From assembly GCF_013116745.1 (NCBI RefSeq), contig NZ_JABFOE010000003.1:62001-126000 (forward strand): a DNA stretch of 64,000 nucleotides, written 5' to 3'. The translations under genes and the position numbers were made by a program. The notes beneath the pieces were generated by a model, which did not search any database, was not told the origin of the DNA, and saw only the letters and a list, made by a program, of their open reading frames with translations. Positions within the stretch are counted from its first letter, which is position 1, and every line of letters starts with the position of its first letter. This document shows, piece by piece, positions 37,428-42,228 of the stretch. This DNA comes from Arthrobacter sp. 260 (lineage in GTDB: Bacteria; Actinomycetota; Actinomycetes; Actinomycetales; Micrococcaceae).

Positions 37428-37478
37428 TGACACCACTTTTGCTTGACATGACACCACTATGGTGTCACTCTGGTGTTA
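37428..37478. promoter_or_regulatory. Array of four RHH half-sites in a promoter
   Basis: TGACACCA at 37428-37435 and 37449-37456, then inverted TGGTGTCA at 37460-37467 and TGGTGTTA at 37471-37478. The middle two form a perfect palindrome with a 3-bp centre, and start-to-start spacings are 21, 11 and 11 bp, i.e. about one or two helical turns. TTGACA (37443-37448) lies between the first two sites, and the last half-site touches the ATG of the RHH gene. This layout is typical of cooperative autorepression. Confidence 0.75.
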
Positions 37479-37966
37479 TGGAATTGGGACGATACGTCAG
37501 TGACCTGCAACGCCAGTTGGTGGATGCGTCGGAAGGCGGCTCCGAAGATACCCGCGCCGCCGCCGAACGCCTTGCCGCCGGACTGGACGCCGCCACCCGG
37601 ATTGTCCTCCTTGACGTTCTGTCGGCCGCGGCCGGAGAGATCACCCGCGATCTCGCCCCCGGTTCGGTTGACCTCCGGCTGAGGGGGCGCGAGGTCGAGT
37701 TTGTCGTGACCCCGTCAGCAACCGACGCCGATGCCGACGAACCGACTGCCGTGACCGTGGACCAGGACGACGCAAGCACCACCAGGACCACCCTGCGCCT
37801 CCCCGACGCCCTGAAAGCGCGGGTGGACGACGCGGCCGCAGCCGACGGCATGTCCGTCAACACCTGGCTGGTCCGCGCGGTGGCCTCTGCGCTCCAACCG
37901 AAGCAACGACGCTCCGCCCAGCGCGCGCTGCGCTCCGGCGACAACTTCGCGGGATGGGCGCGCTAG
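37478..37966 (+). CDS. Ribbon-helix-helix (HicB/Arc-like) regulator
   Basis: A 162-residue protein. The C-terminal part (about 105-145) is a ribbon-helix-helix DNA-binding domain: strand TTRTTLRLPDALKARV then helices DDAAAADGMSVNTWLVRAVASAL. The N-terminal 70 residues are helical and acidic, possibly for oligomerisation or ligand binding. There is no partner HicA toxin next to it. The ATG at 37478 overlaps the operator array, with no ribosome site and a TTGACA about 30 nt upstream, so leaderless transcription and autorepression are likely. It precedes the DUF4097 and ABC genes in the same direction. Confidence 0.8.
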   Translation: MELGRYVSDLQRQLVDASEGGSEDTRAAAERLAAGLDAATRIVLLDVLSAAAGEITRDLAPGSVDLRLRGREVEFVVTPSATDADADEPTAVTVDQDDASTTRTTLRLPDALKARVDDAAAADGMSVNTWLVRAVASALQPKQRRSAQRALRSGDNFAGWAR

Positions 37967-38046
37967 CCAGCGCCCGCCCCACAACTTAATCCGCCCCGCG
38001 GACCCGCGGGGATAATCCACCACGCCTACCAGGGGAGTACTTCAGC

Positions 38047-38892
38047 ATGCCTACTTACACCACCCCCACCGCCATCGACCTCGCCGTCAACCTGCAGGTC
38101 GGTGCTCTGGACGTCATCGCCAGCGACCGTTCCGACACCGTGGTCACTGTGTCACCCACCAACCCGGACCGGGCCGTCGACCGCCGGGGGGTCGAGGCGA
38201 CCACCGTCGACTTCGACGGCACACGGCTCACCGTCACCGGTCCGAAGCCCCGATTCAACATGATCGGACCCACCGAGTCGGTCGACCTGCTGATCGAGTT
38301 GCCCACCGGCTCCCGGCTGACCGCCAGGGTGGCGACCGGCGGGGTACGCACCGTCGGCCGGCTGGGCGCCACCCGGATCAAGAACTTGATGGGGCCAGTG
38401 GACATCGACGCCACCGGCGAACTGTGGTTGCGCGCCGGGCACGGCAACGCGACCGCCGGATCCGTCGGCGGCGGTGCCGAAATCACCGCTGACCACGGCC
38501 AGATCCGGGTCGGCGCCATCGGCGGGGAGTCAATCCTCAAAGCCTCCCACGGTGCCATCTCCGTCGGGGAAGCGGGCGGCGACCTAGAGGCGAAACTCTC
38601 CTACGGCGACTTTGAAGTCGGCAGGGCCCTCGCATCAGTGACGGCCAAAACCGCCTATGGCAGCATCACGCTTCCCGACGTAGGAAGCGGATCCATCGCC
38701 GTTGAGAGCGGGTACGGCCAGGTCACCATCGGGATCCGTCCAGGAGTTGCGGCCTGGCTGGACCTGTCATCCAAAGTCGGCCACATCCGCAACGAGCTCG
38801 ACGGCGACAGGGCCCCGGCGCCGTCCGAGCAAACCGTCGCCGTCCGTGCGCGCACCCAGGGCGGCAACATCTCCATCCACCGGACCCGGTAG
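38047..38892 (+). CDS. DUF4097-family beta-repeat protein
   Basis: A 281-residue protein built of short repeating beta strands (for example GPVDIDATGELWLRAGHGNA, AEITADHGQIRVGAIGG, AKTAYGSITLPDVGSGS), the DUF4097 adhesin-like beta-helix pattern. No signal peptide or membrane segment is visible, so it is probably cytoplasmic. AGGGGAG precedes the ATG. It sits between the RHH regulator (80-nt gap) and an ABC exporter (38-nt gap), which suggests a joint function that I cannot name. Confidence 0.78.
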   Translation: MPTYTTPTAIDLAVNLQVGALDVIASDRSDTVVTVSPTNPDRAVDRRGVEATTVDFDGTRLTVTGPKPRFNMIGPTESVDLLIELPTGSRLTARVATGGVRTVGRLGATRIKNLMGPVDIDATGELWLRAGHGNATAGSVGGGAEITADHGQIRVGAIGGESILKASHGAISVGEAGGDLEAKLSYGDFEVGRALASVTAKTAYGSITLPDVGSGSIAVESGYGQVTIGIRPGVAAWLDLSSKVGHIRNELDGDRAPAPSEQTVAVRARTQGGNISIHRTR

Positions 38893-38930
38893 CGGCGCGC
38901 CAGCCGGGCACACCTGATAAGGAACCTGAC

Positions 38931-39875
38931 ATGCATTCGACAGCAATCAGCCTTGAGGGACTCCGTAAGTCCTACGGCGACAAAATGGTGCTCGACGGCG
39001 TCGACCTCGGTGTCGGCACCGGAACAGTCACCGCACTGCTCGGCCAGAACGGGGCGGGCAAAACCACCACGATCCACATCCTCTCGACACTGATCCACGC
39101 CGACGCCGGTACCGCCTCGGTGGCCGGCTGCGACGTCGCCGGGGATCCCGACGGTGTTCGCGCCGCGATCGGCCTGACCGGGCAGTTCTCGGCGGTCGAT
39201 GACCTGCTGACGGGCGAGGAAAATCTTTACCTAATGGCCCGCCTCAGGCACCTCGGGGCGAAACGCTCACGAACACGAGTGGCTGAGCTCCTGGAGCAGT
39301 TCGACCTGGCTGAATCGGCACGAAACCGCCTGTCCACCTACTCCGGTGGGATGCGACGGCGGCTCGACCTTGCGATGACCCTGGTCGCGACGCCAAGCGT
39401 GATTTTCCTCGACGAACCAACCAGCGGCCTGGATCCGCGGAGCCGCCACACTATGTGGGACATGGTGCGGAACCTGGTCGCCGAGGGCACCACAGTGCTG
39501 CTCACCACCCAGCATCTGGAAGAGGCGGACCGGCTTGCCGACCGGATTGCGGTTCTCGACGGCGGCCGGATCGTGGCCGAGGGAACACCGGACGAGCTCA
39601 AACGGCTGGTGCCCGGCGGTCACGTCCGGCTCCGTTTCGCCGACGCCGCTACTTTGGGGTCCGCCGCGCAGCTGTTGCAGGAGTCGGAGAGCGATGAGTC
39701 GGGGCTTTCCCTCACAGTGCCGAGCCAGGGCGAACCCGCCGCCCTCCGTGCGCTCCTGAACCGCCTCGACGCGGCGAACCTTCCCGTTGACCACCTCAGC
39801 ATCCACACCCCCGACCTCGATGACGTGTTCTTCGCCCTCACTGGCCGGGTCGAGACGAAAGGAACCCTCCCATGA
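38931..39875 (+). CDS. ABC exporter ATP-binding protein (DrrA-like)
   Basis: A 314-residue ATPase of the daunorubicin-resistance DrrA group. Walker A GQNGAGKTT (about residue 41), signature YSGGMRRRLD (about 138), Walker B VIFLDEPTSGLD (about 160), H-loop in LLTTQHLEEADRLAD. A C-terminal extension as in DrrA follows. It powers the permease encoded immediately downstream (4-nt overlap). Confidence 0.9.
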   Translation: MHSTAISLEGLRKSYGDKMVLDGVDLGVGTGTVTALLGQNGAGKTTTIHILSTLIHADAGTASVAGCDVAGDPDGVRAAIGLTGQFSAVDDLLTGEENLYLMARLRHLGAKRSRTRVAELLEQFDLAESARNRLSTYSGGMRRRLDLAMTLVATPSVIFLDEPTSGLDPRSRHTMWDMVRNLVAEGTTVLLTTQHLEEADRLADRIAVLDGGRIVAEGTPDELKRLVPGGHVRLRFADAATLGSAAQLLQESESDESGLSLTVPSQGEPAALRALLNRLDAANLPVDHLSIHTPDLDDVFFALTGRVETKGTLP

Positions 39876-40705
39876 CCACCACCGCCGCGTCACCGGTCCG
39901 CCCGGGCGCGAAACGGCCATCCCACGCCGTGGCAGATGCGATCACCCTGCTGCGCCGCAACCTGCTCCACATGGTCCGCTACCCCGGGCTGTCCCTGTTC
40001 ACCATCCTCGGCCCCGTGGTCGCCCTCCTGTTCATCGTGCACGTGTTCGGTGGCACCCTCGGGGCGGGCCTTCCCGGCGTCGACGCCGGTGGCGGCCGCG
40101 AGGCCTACGTCTCCTACGTCCTGCCAGGAATCCTGATGGTCACTGTCGCGAGCAGTGCCGGTGGGGTCGCCATCACCGCGGCGATGGATATGACGGAGGG
40201 GATCACCGCCCGGTTCCGGACCATGGCCATCTCGCGGTCCGCAGTCCTCGCCGGGCATGTGCTGGGAAACACGATCGTGGGCCTGATCGCCGTCGTCCTC
40301 GTCTTCGGCGTCGGCCTGCTCATCGGTTTCCGTCCGACGGCAGACCTGCCCGGGTGGCTTTCCGCCCTCGGCCTCATTGCCCTGACCTGCTATGCGATCA
40401 GCTGGCTGGGCGTGGCCATGGGAATCCAGGCGAAATCGGTCGAAACGGCGAGCAACTGGCCGTTGCTGTTGACCCTCCTGCCGTTCCTGGGGAGCGGGTT
40501 CGTCCCGACAGCATCGATGCCCGAATGGCTGCAGTGGTTTGCCCAGTACCAGCCGTTCACTCCCCTCATCGAGGCCCTCCGCGGCCTGCTGTTCGGCACC
40601 GACCCGGGCTGGAACCTGTGGGTGTCACTGGGCTGGTGCGTGGTGATTATCGCCATCGGCTACGCCTGGTCCATGAGCATCTATGAGCGGAGGTCGGTGC
40701 GCTGA
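39872..40705 (+). CDS. ABC-2 type permease (DrrB-like)
   Basis: A 277-residue six-segment permease of the ABC-2 family, partner of the ATPase at 38931. The stretch YVLPGILMVTVASSAGGVAITAAMD and the FVPTASMPEWLQWFAQYQPFTPLIEALRGL segment are typical of DrrB-like exporters. It starts inside the ATPase stop. The last gene of the RHH-DUF4097-ABC unit; substrate unknown. Confidence 0.88.
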   Translation: MTTTAASPVRPGAKRPSHAVADAITLLRRNLLHMVRYPGLSLFTILGPVVALLFIVHVFGGTLGAGLPGVDAGGGREAYVSYVLPGILMVTVASSAGGVAITAAMDMTEGITARFRTMAISRSAVLAGHVLGNTIVGLIAVVLVFGVGLLIGFRPTADLPGWLSALGLIALTCYAISWLGVAMGIQAKSVETASNWPLLLTLLPFLGSGFVPTASMPEWLQWFAQYQPFTPLIEALRGLLFGTDPGWNLWVSLGWCVVIIAIGYAWSMSIYERRSVR

Positions 40706-40838: not shown

Positions 40839-41927
40839 ATGACCACAACACTGATGGCTATCGGCACCAAGAAGGGCCTGTGGCTCGCCACCAGCACTGA
40901 CCGCCAATCCTGGACACTGTCCGAGCCGCACTTCCTCATGCAGGAGGTCGCCAGCGTCGGCATCGACACCCGCGAGGACCGGACCCGTATCCTCGTGGGA
41001 GTGCTCTCCTACCACTGGGGTCCAACAGTGGTCTACTCCGACGACCTGGGGGCCACCTGGTCCGAACCCGAGCAGGGTGCCATCAAGTTTGACGGATCCG
41101 ATGACACAGCGGTCGGGCGGATCTGGCAGCTCCAACCGGACTCCGCCGACCGCCCCGGAGTCGTCTGGGCCGGCTGCGAACCCATCTCGGTGTGGAAGTC
41201 GACCGACTACGGTGAACACTTCGAATTGAACCGCGGCCTCTGGGACCACCCGCACCGTTCCGAATGGGGCGCCGGGTTCGGCGGTGCCGCAGCGCACTCG
41301 GTGATCCCGAGCCCCGTCAGCGACACGGTCCACGTGGCCATGAGCACCGGTGGGGTATACCGCTCCGACGACGGCGGCGCGTCCTGGGCCCCCCGGAACA
41401 AGGGAATCTCGGCCTACTTCATGCCGGACCCCAACCCGGAATTTGGCCAATGCGTCCACAAGATCGCCCGGGACGCAGTTGAACCGAACCGGCTGTACGC
41501 GCAGAACCATCACGGGGTGTACCGCTCCGATGACAGCGGTGAGACCTGGGAGTCGATCGCTGACGGGCTGCCCGCAGACTTCGGGTTCGTGATGCTCACC
41601 CACCCGCGCCGCAGTGGCACGGCCTGGGTGATCCCGTTGAAGGCCGATGGGGAGCGGATCCCGCCGGAGGCGAAGCTCGCGGTCCACCGCACTGACGATG
41701 CCGGGTCCTCCTGGACCCGTCAGGACCGGGGGCTGCCCGACAACGAGTACAACGCCGTCCTGCGGGACGCCGCCGGGGTCGACACGCTGGAGCCGGTGGG
41801 CGTGTACTTCGGCACCCGCGGGGGCACCGTCTATGCGAGCAACGATGAGGGTGGCTCGTTCAGCGAGGTGGCCTCCCACTTGCCGGACGTGCTGTGCGTC
41901 CGTGCGGCCGCCGTCGTCGGCGCCTAG
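40839..41927 (+). CDS. Asp-box (BNR) beta-propeller, exo-sialidase-like
   Basis: A 362-residue propeller with at least five Asp-box motifs of the S-x-D-x-G-x-(T/S)-W type (YSDDLGATW, YRSDDGGASW, YRSDDSGETW, HRTDDAGSSW, YASNDEGGSF). There is no signal peptide and the sialidase catalytic Arg triad is not evident, so it is probably a cytoplasmic structural or enzymatic propeller of unknown activity. GGACCCC precedes the ATG weakly. The next gene, encoding a MoaD-like protein, starts 1 nt after its stop, so the two are coupled. Confidence 0.78.
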   Translation: MTTTLMAIGTKKGLWLATSTDRQSWTLSEPHFLMQEVASVGIDTREDRTRILVGVLSYHWGPTVVYSDDLGATWSEPEQGAIKFDGSDDTAVGRIWQLQPDSADRPGVVWAGCEPISVWKSTDYGEHFELNRGLWDHPHRSEWGAGFGGAAAHSVIPSPVSDTVHVAMSTGGVYRSDDGGASWAPRNKGISAYFMPDPNPEFGQCVHKIARDAVEPNRLYAQNHHGVYRSDDSGETWESIADGLPADFGFVMLTHPRRSGTAWVIPLKADGERIPPEAKLAVHRTDDAGSSWTRQDRGLPDNEYNAVLRDAAGVDTLEPVGVYFGTRGGTVYASNDEGGSFSEVASHLPDVLCVRAAAVVGA

Positions 41928-41928
41928 G

Positions 41929-42228
41929 ATGGCGACCCCGACCAGCGAGGTGACCGTCCTGATCCCCACCCTCCTGCGACCGCTGATTGGCGACCGGGCC
42001 ACGGTTCCGGTGCCCACCCCGTCGGCGGTCCCGCTGGCCCAACTCCTCGACGACCTGCACCAGGGGTATCCGGTGTTCGCCCGGCGGATCAGGGATGAGA
42101 CCGGGGCTCTGCGCCGGTACGTCAACGTGTATGTGGACGGGGAGGACGTGCGCCGGCTGGAGGGCCTGTCGACGCCGGTCCCACCCGGCGCCGAGGTGAT
42201 GATCGTGCAATCGGTCGCTGGCGGGTAG
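41929..42228 (+). CDS. MoaD/ThiS-like ubiquitin-fold protein
   Basis: A 99-residue small protein with the beta-grasp pattern of MoaD/ThiS sulfur carriers, ending in IVQSVAGG with the C-terminal Gly-Gly that is adenylated and thiocarboxylated in this family. A typical NVYVDGEDVRRLEG core and a terminal strand are visible. No MoeB-type activating enzyme or molybdopterin genes are in the window. Its ATG is 1 nt after the BNR propeller stop, so it likely works with that protein. Confidence 0.8.
   Translation: MATPTSEVTVLIPTLLRPLIGDRATVPVPTPSAVPLAQLLDDLHQGYPVFARRIRDETGALRRYVNVYVDGEDVRRLEGLSTPVPPGAEVMIVQSVAGG

Follow-up and report, generated by a model that had tools for sequence, protein, structure and literature searches.

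Among ribbon-helix-helix (RHH) repressors, Arc contacts DNA bases through residues 9, 11 and 13 (N11 included), and Arc operators place their sites 11 bp apart. In actinobacteria, an operon combining a Toastrack protein, an ATP-binding cassette (ABC) ATPase, a permease and an RHH regulator was noted by Ravi et al. (2024), a paper that also calls Toastrack domains pan-bacterial in the passages concerned (PMC11237479). A related gene pair in Streptomyces lunaelactis, Lun1-Lun2, belongs to the lunaemycin cluster, for which a passage of PMC9866976 gives the function of both genes as unknown. The locus described here occupies positions 37428-40705 of a 64,000-nucleotide stretch of the genome of Arthrobacter sp. 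260 (hereafter the window). It carries the genes for an RHH protein, a DUF4097 protein, an ABC ATPase and an ABC-2 permease, preceded by an array of short sites that ends at the start codon of the RHH gene. The gene set is already known in actinobacteria, and the control region is the part for which no description was found. No report of the operator was found in the open-access literature searched, including by site sequence, and the relevant passages of PMC11237479, PMC9866976 and PMC13101518 do not mention it.

We consider it likely, judging from comparative sequence evidence, that the RHH protein acts as a local autorepressor of the RHH-Toastrack-ATPase-permease operon through the start-codon array, with the Toastrack protein as its partner and the DrrAB-like pump as its output. 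Read directly from the sequence, the array comprises four sites of 8 bp each with spacings of 21, 11 and 11 bp, and the final A of site 4 is also the A of the RHH gene ATG (37478-37480), a one-base overlap. The palindrome at the locus reads TGACACCA-NNN-TGGTGTCA. A search with the three-site pattern plus TG, allowing up to two mismatches, located one place in the window (the two matches being its two strands), compared with none in 100 shuffles. Across relatives, the unit variants were TGACACCA, TGGTGTCA, TGACGTCA, TGGCGCCA and TGATGTCA, most of them conforming to the pseudo-palindrome TGRYRYCA. Since the unit is itself pseudo-palindromic, each 8-bp site is probably the whole site for one RHH dimer. 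An earlier reading of the window, made from the letters alone (the sequence-only reading), had described four half-sites at 21/11/11 spacing ending at the ATG; the positions, the spacing and the contact with the ATG stood, and the term half-site did not. Sites lying 11 or 21 bp apart would face the same side of the helix.

Conservation of the array was assessed in 139 pooled loci, comprising 30 from an order sample (149 genomes, 35 with an RHH homologue; own copy included), 80 named loci from GTDB and 29 from a phylum sample (396 genomes, 57 with a match, some to the RHH part alone). The named loci were the best 80 of 593 obtained with one RHH-helix pattern and are biased towards relatives of the window. 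The 130 loci with a clear start were used; among L118-L146 (29 loci), 9 were dropped for an unsure start or offset. Six plasmid loci (L172-L177) entered no count. Some loci represent one genome present in two collections, and a set thinned at 75% protein identity gives the fairer count. A site was scored when TGRYRYCA occurred, with no more than one mismatch, at position -29, -18 or -7 relative to the ATG, and the three positions could shift together by -2 to +1. At least two of these three promoter-proximal sites were in register in 127 of the 130 loci (own copy included) and in 63 of the 65 thinned loci, compared with 4 of 26,000 shuffled upstream regions. When no shift was allowed, at least two sites were found at 110/130 loci, against 4 of 3,604 random ATGs and none of 78 DUF4097 starts. 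At the level of sequence, the three-site array and its register are a regular feature of RHH starts, and the conserved array indirectly supports binding of the RHH protein to its own promoter.

The probable promoter elements fall within the same array. In the 54 thinned loci in register, the commonest bases at -35 to -31 were TTGMC. Positions -11 and -7 were A and T, respectively, in all 54 aligned loci, within a CAnnnT element at -12, with the ATG right after. These two positions are part of the sites used to choose the loci, so the agreement partly reflects that selection. Because of the conserved TTGMC, A-11 and T-7, the 17-bp spacer and the ATG at +1, the RHH mRNA is probably leaderless, starting at the A of the ATG from a promoter filled by the array. 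A far upstream site at the distance of site 1 was present in 31 of the 63 thinned loci having the core array. This fourth site, two helical turns upstream, and the weak -10 of the window would suit an RHH protein acting as an activator or nucleoid-type organiser, in which polymerase would be recruited through the upstream site and only restrained by the inner ones. We regard such a role as improbable: the inner sites overlap the -10 and the start codon in nearly all loci and the upstream one was not found in 32/63, a pattern that fits repression.

A single target was favored by a genome-wide search with an array profile, for which we used the window together with 23 of the 80 named loci, of our choosing and mostly of the window's (T) type. 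In its own genome the profile located a single place (E 4.3e-6), the next unrelated place having an E-value of 0.36. Matches were obtained in 22 of the 149 order genomes, and in 20 of these 22 the array was directly upstream of an RHH homologue. Since one array was found in the window's own genome, and most matching genomes of the order had it upstream of an RHH homologue, the protein is most likely a dedicated local autoregulator. A large regulon was rejected on the same finding that the array model located one place in the genome.

The structure of the RHH protein was examined in an AlphaFold2 model, which is weak for the protein as a whole (pTM 0.39). The helical N-terminal half noticed in the sequence-only reading was recovered as helices 3-18 and 23-58, followed by a beta-hairpin. 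A linker and a tail, both of low confidence, stand before and after the RHH helices. The RHH helices, 110-122 and 127-139, follow the conserved RxTLR stretch, with the strand itself unassigned in the monomer model. In a structural comparison, chains of RHH proteins topped the list, those of AtaR, PutA, CopG and Arc having low Z-scores of 4.6-5.3 over 41-47 residues. Interspersed were matches to generic helical structures, the only kind obtained for the N-terminal half. Foldseek with the whole model gave no match at E < 0.001, and for the N-terminal half we neither assign nor dismiss a fold. Both Pfam scores were below cut-off, namely 16.5 bits against 20.5 for RHH_1 and 18.4 against 21 for HicB (PF05534), the latter covering residues 105-134 only. 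By its modelled helices, these structural matches and the alignment of its strand, the protein belongs to the RHH (MetJ/Arc/CopG) group. Profile alignment of the strand gave weak matches to Mnt (E 0.47) and to Arc (E 0.056), the latter placing R103, T105 and R107 at Arc residues 9, 11 and 13. Across 81 sequences R103 and R107 were invariant, and residue 105 was T, N or S. The C-terminal tail is GW[AV]R or a near variant, with GW in 78 and SW in 2 of the 80 named loci. A tail that is conserved and follows a loose linker points to a docking peptide, and our guess is that it docks on the DUF4097 protein. The locus L141, which has neither a DUF4097 gene nor the GW tail, is in keeping with tail docking, and its array of sites was retained.

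The identity of residue 105 was compared with the operator sequence in 127 loci. The mean frequency of G at site position 3, taken over both halves, was 0.45 for T loci (n=81), 0.83 for N loci (n=39) and 0.26 for S loci (n=7), and a central CG was present in S loci at 0.86. Among the thinned loci (n=63), none of the 40 T loci lay above 0.50, and 15 of the 17 N loci reached 0.75. The residue-105 states cluster on the tree with 9 changes. The number of independent T/N pairs was one when well-supported branches were considered and five when all branches were.

The DUF4097 protein and the DrrAB-like exporter predicted to follow in the same direction were both recovered, all four genes being on the forward strand with gaps of 80, 38 and -4 bp (Table 1). 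The DUF4097 protein passes the PF13349 cut-off (24.7 bits against 22.9), and its model (pLDDT 94.3) is an all-beta beta-helix with no long helix, no transmembrane predictor having been applied. Foldseek returned 12 matches at E < 0.001 (best 3.3e-6), including 4qrk and 4opw at modest TM-scores (0.2-0.57), both named as Toastrack examples in a passage of PMC11237479. On the modelled fold, the DUF4097 protein is a Toastrack protein, a right-handed beta-helix; with 14.3 bits against 285, it falls outside the LiaG equivalog NF049997. The ATPase scored 311.5 bits on TIGR01188 (drrA), just short of the cut-off of 312.45, and its DrrA1-3_C domain passes (32.3 against 27.4). The permease was far short of the drrB model (66.3 against 223.05).

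Table 1. Positions of the putative control elements and genes of the locus within the window
Feature	Position	Strand	Remarks
Putative operator site 1 (TGACACCA)	37428..37435	+	two helical turns 5' of site 2; sequence read
Probable -35 hexamer TTGACA	37443..37448	+	between sites 1 and 2; not called by consensus scan
Putative operator site 2 (TGACACCA)	37449..37456	+	sequence read, window scan, locus comparison
Putative operator site 3 (TGGTGTCA on +)	37460..37467	-	sequence read, window scan, locus comparison
Probable -10 hexamer CACTCT	37466..37471	+	shared with sites 3 and 4; 17-bp spacer; probable +1 at A of ATG
Putative operator site 4 (TGGTGTTA on +)	37471..37478	-	sequence read, locus comparison
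RHH autoregulator (putative), 162 aa	37478..37966	+	helical hairpin and beta-hairpin 1-77, linker, RHH at about 101-142, C-terminal tail FAGWAR
DUF4097/Toastrack beta-helix protein, 281 aa	38047..38892	+	
DrrA-like ABC ATPase, 314 aa	38931..39875	+	
ABC-2 permease, 277 aa	39872..40705	+	start overlaps ATPase stop by 4 bp

A perfect GC-rich inverted repeat, CCCCGCGG-AC-CCGCGGGG, was also observed at 37994-38011 between the RHH and DUF4097 genes, with no T-run after it; it might tune expression of the downstream genes.

The gene order was kept well outside close relatives, in Streptomyces, Micromonospora, Tsukamurella, Cellulomonas, Cryobacterium and others, a check that the sequence-only reading had proposed; the closest named RHH relatives among the best 80 of 593 were in Arthrobacter and Rhodoglobus at 83-84% identity. 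Of the 80 named loci, 78 had a DUF4097 gene directly 3' of the RHH gene, and L089 and L094 did not. In L064 this gene is broken, with DUF4097 and ATPase matches in one shortened open reading frame (ORF); the locus was kept in the counts and left out of the DUF4097 alignment. Among the unnamed loci, 55 of 59 (own copy included) had the DUF4097 gene behind the RHH gene. The four others were the distant RHH copies L141 and L143, without an adjoining DUF4097 match, and L023 and L025, where no DUF4097 match lies behind an RHH gene with an array and the ORF called next runs on the opposite strand. Conversely, 31 of the 33 DUF4097 genes found in the order at E < 1e-30 adjoin an RHH homologue, the exceptions being in G032 and a second copy in G074.

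The exporter was less constant. In strict windows, ATPase and permease genes followed in 63 of the 80 named loci, and 12/80 pairs were without exporter genes, of which L101 is truncated by the end of its contig and L091 shows hits to the ATPase and permease at a greater distance. The next ORF after the pair, called by third-position GC, was on the other strand in L012, L013, L017, L019, L028, L029 and L134. A cytochrome P450 gene follows the pair in S. lunaelactis pSLUN1 and in L106; in the former (L172, NZ_CP026305.1 3935-7053), the Lun1-Lun2 pair has an array before Lun1 and is followed by P450 and ferredoxin genes. Since some pairs lack an exporter or have a P450 gene instead, the RHH-DUF4097 pair is the core and the exporter a frequent, optional output. 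The proposal of a regulated export module was largely right in its gene set, order and operator, and has to be amended in that the exporter is optional and the mRNA probably leaderless. The same loci could mean that the exporter genes are independent of the pair and merely travel along with it. This is unlikely, given that in the window the exporter genes lie on the same strand behind a 38-bp gap and overlap each other by 4 bp, and that an exporter occupies the same place in most of the named loci. A wider model, in which the RHH-Toastrack pair is a widespread actinobacterial two-gene sensor-repressor with exchangeable outputs (an exporter, a P450-ferredoxin system or none nearby), the Toastrack protein is an antirepressor docking on the tail or N-terminal domain, and the leaderless start is embedded in the array, is offered as a tentative possibility.

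A conserved operator ahead of two core genes, the first of them the regulator, is also what a toxin-antitoxin-like pair would present, with the RHH protein as antitoxin, the DUF4097 partner as effector and autorepression at tandem sites as in type II systems. Pairs followed by an ORF on the other strand (e.g., L012, L013, L019) would agree with this. So would public plasmid records, in which the same gene order occurs and the RHH gene is named either as a hypothetical protein or as "toxin-antitoxin system HicB family antitoxin". Against it, the HicB score is below cut-off and confined to the RHH part, and a search of the whole genome for HicA (PF07927) at E 0.001 yielded no match, the same search being positive in 7 of 14 control genomes. 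Moreover, the partner is known to Pfam only as DUF4097 and is modelled as a Toastrack-like beta-helix, RHH copies occur without DUF4097 (L023, L025), and the RHH protein had no match in 50,697 phage records. We judge such a pair to be highly improbable; HicAB and type II systems were set aside on the HicB score, the missing HicA and the nature of the partner, and the sequence-only reading, which had noted no HicA partner and no standard toxin-antitoxin system, is upheld. A phage origin was likewise rejected, since the phage collection gave no match to the RHH protein. An RHH homologue was found in 43 of 72,556 plasmid records, 37 of them from Streptomyces. Neither the RHH nor the DUF4097 protein had a match in G041 and G113, both other genomes of the window's genus in the sample. 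Consequently, the operon appears to be patchily distributed, perhaps having arrived by transfer.

In the autorepressor model that we prefer, RHH dimers would bind the TGRYRYCA 8-bp pseudo-palindromes, which succeed one another at one or two helical turns along a single DNA face, with base contacts made by the predicted beta-strand R103-T105-R107. The bound dimers would cover the -35, the spacer, the -10 and the start codon, so that the leaderless promoter and the operon would be shut off. The Toastrack protein would be the cytoplasmic partner. On a signal from the membrane or from a ligand it would relieve or tune repression, and its contact point on the repressor may be the GW[AV]R tail or the helical domain at the N-terminus. 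The usual output would be the DrrAB-like ABC-2 pump, which probably exports a lipophilic, harmful compound.

Several observations weigh against this model. The hexamer CACTCT is a poor match to TATAAT and was not called by the promoter scan; because of this, the leaderless start draws on the comparison of loci. The 80-bp gap between the RHH and DUF4097 genes could accommodate a second promoter. Three loci without a DUF4097 gene (L089, L023 and L025) retain the tail, so its role need not be to bind DUF4097. The array was missing in 3 of the 130 loci, namely L064 (where the downstream genes are broken), L134 and L145, and a Streptomyces sp. NBC_00335 plasmid (L177) has a degenerate array before the RHH gene with all four operon genes present. 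The array profile matched two genomes with no RHH homologue (G010 and G036), and among the 35 order genomes with a homologue, 15 had no match to this T-type profile at E 0.01. Finally, residue 105 tracks the operator base, and the association is not significant once ancestry is counted; since the states are clustered on the tree and independent pairs are few, it is suggestive and not proof.

The flanking genes of the window (DUF4031, BNR, TetR and ThiS) were rejected as parts of the operon, as the ORFs of the 80 named loci contained no homologue of them (phmmer, 1e-10). Downstream, a BNR/sortilin-like repeat protein and then a ThiS-family protein (41965-42228) are encoded within 40839-42228, with no sign of an operon link.

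No test of the role of Toastrack in such operons was found in the literature searched, and a near-constant RHH neighbor with a predictable operator offers a direct way into Toastrack function. The conserved array should make many such repressors recognizable from DNA alone, and it speaks against the name "HicB antitoxin" in public records. The correspondence between T, N or S in the RHH strand and the operator base provides a testable recognition rule. If true, the antirepressor reading would give Toastrack proteins a direct transcriptional partner, and repression would be coupled to a leaderless mRNA through an array in which the start codon is embedded.

Compared with the operon of Ravi et al. 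(2024), the locus has the same Toastrack, ABC ATPase, permease and RHH proteins in one actinobacterial operon, with the RHH-Toastrack-ABC order found side by side on one strand in the window. The passage concerned is a single sentence, which does not mention an operator, a leaderless start or stand-alone pairs (PMC11237479). In the GNTR version, the same source describes a membrane-anchored Toastrack and a lipoprotein, whereas the window has neither between its four genes. With DrrAB-type ABC-2 exporters the locus shares an ATPase close to drrA and a permease related to drrB, and it differs from DrrAB proper in that the ATPase is just under the drrA cut-off and the permease far under that of drrB. 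HicB antitoxins have a similar C-terminal RHH-like DNA-binding part, and their name is used in some public records, but the HicB score of the window's protein is below cut-off and limited to that part, with no HicA match. The Arc, Mnt and CopG repressors have the same RHH topology, a strand aligned at Arc positions 9/11/13, and tandem sites on one face. Unlike them, the RHH protein of the window has an additional N-terminal helical/beta-hairpin domain, a GW[AV]R tail and three to four putative sites that include the start codon.

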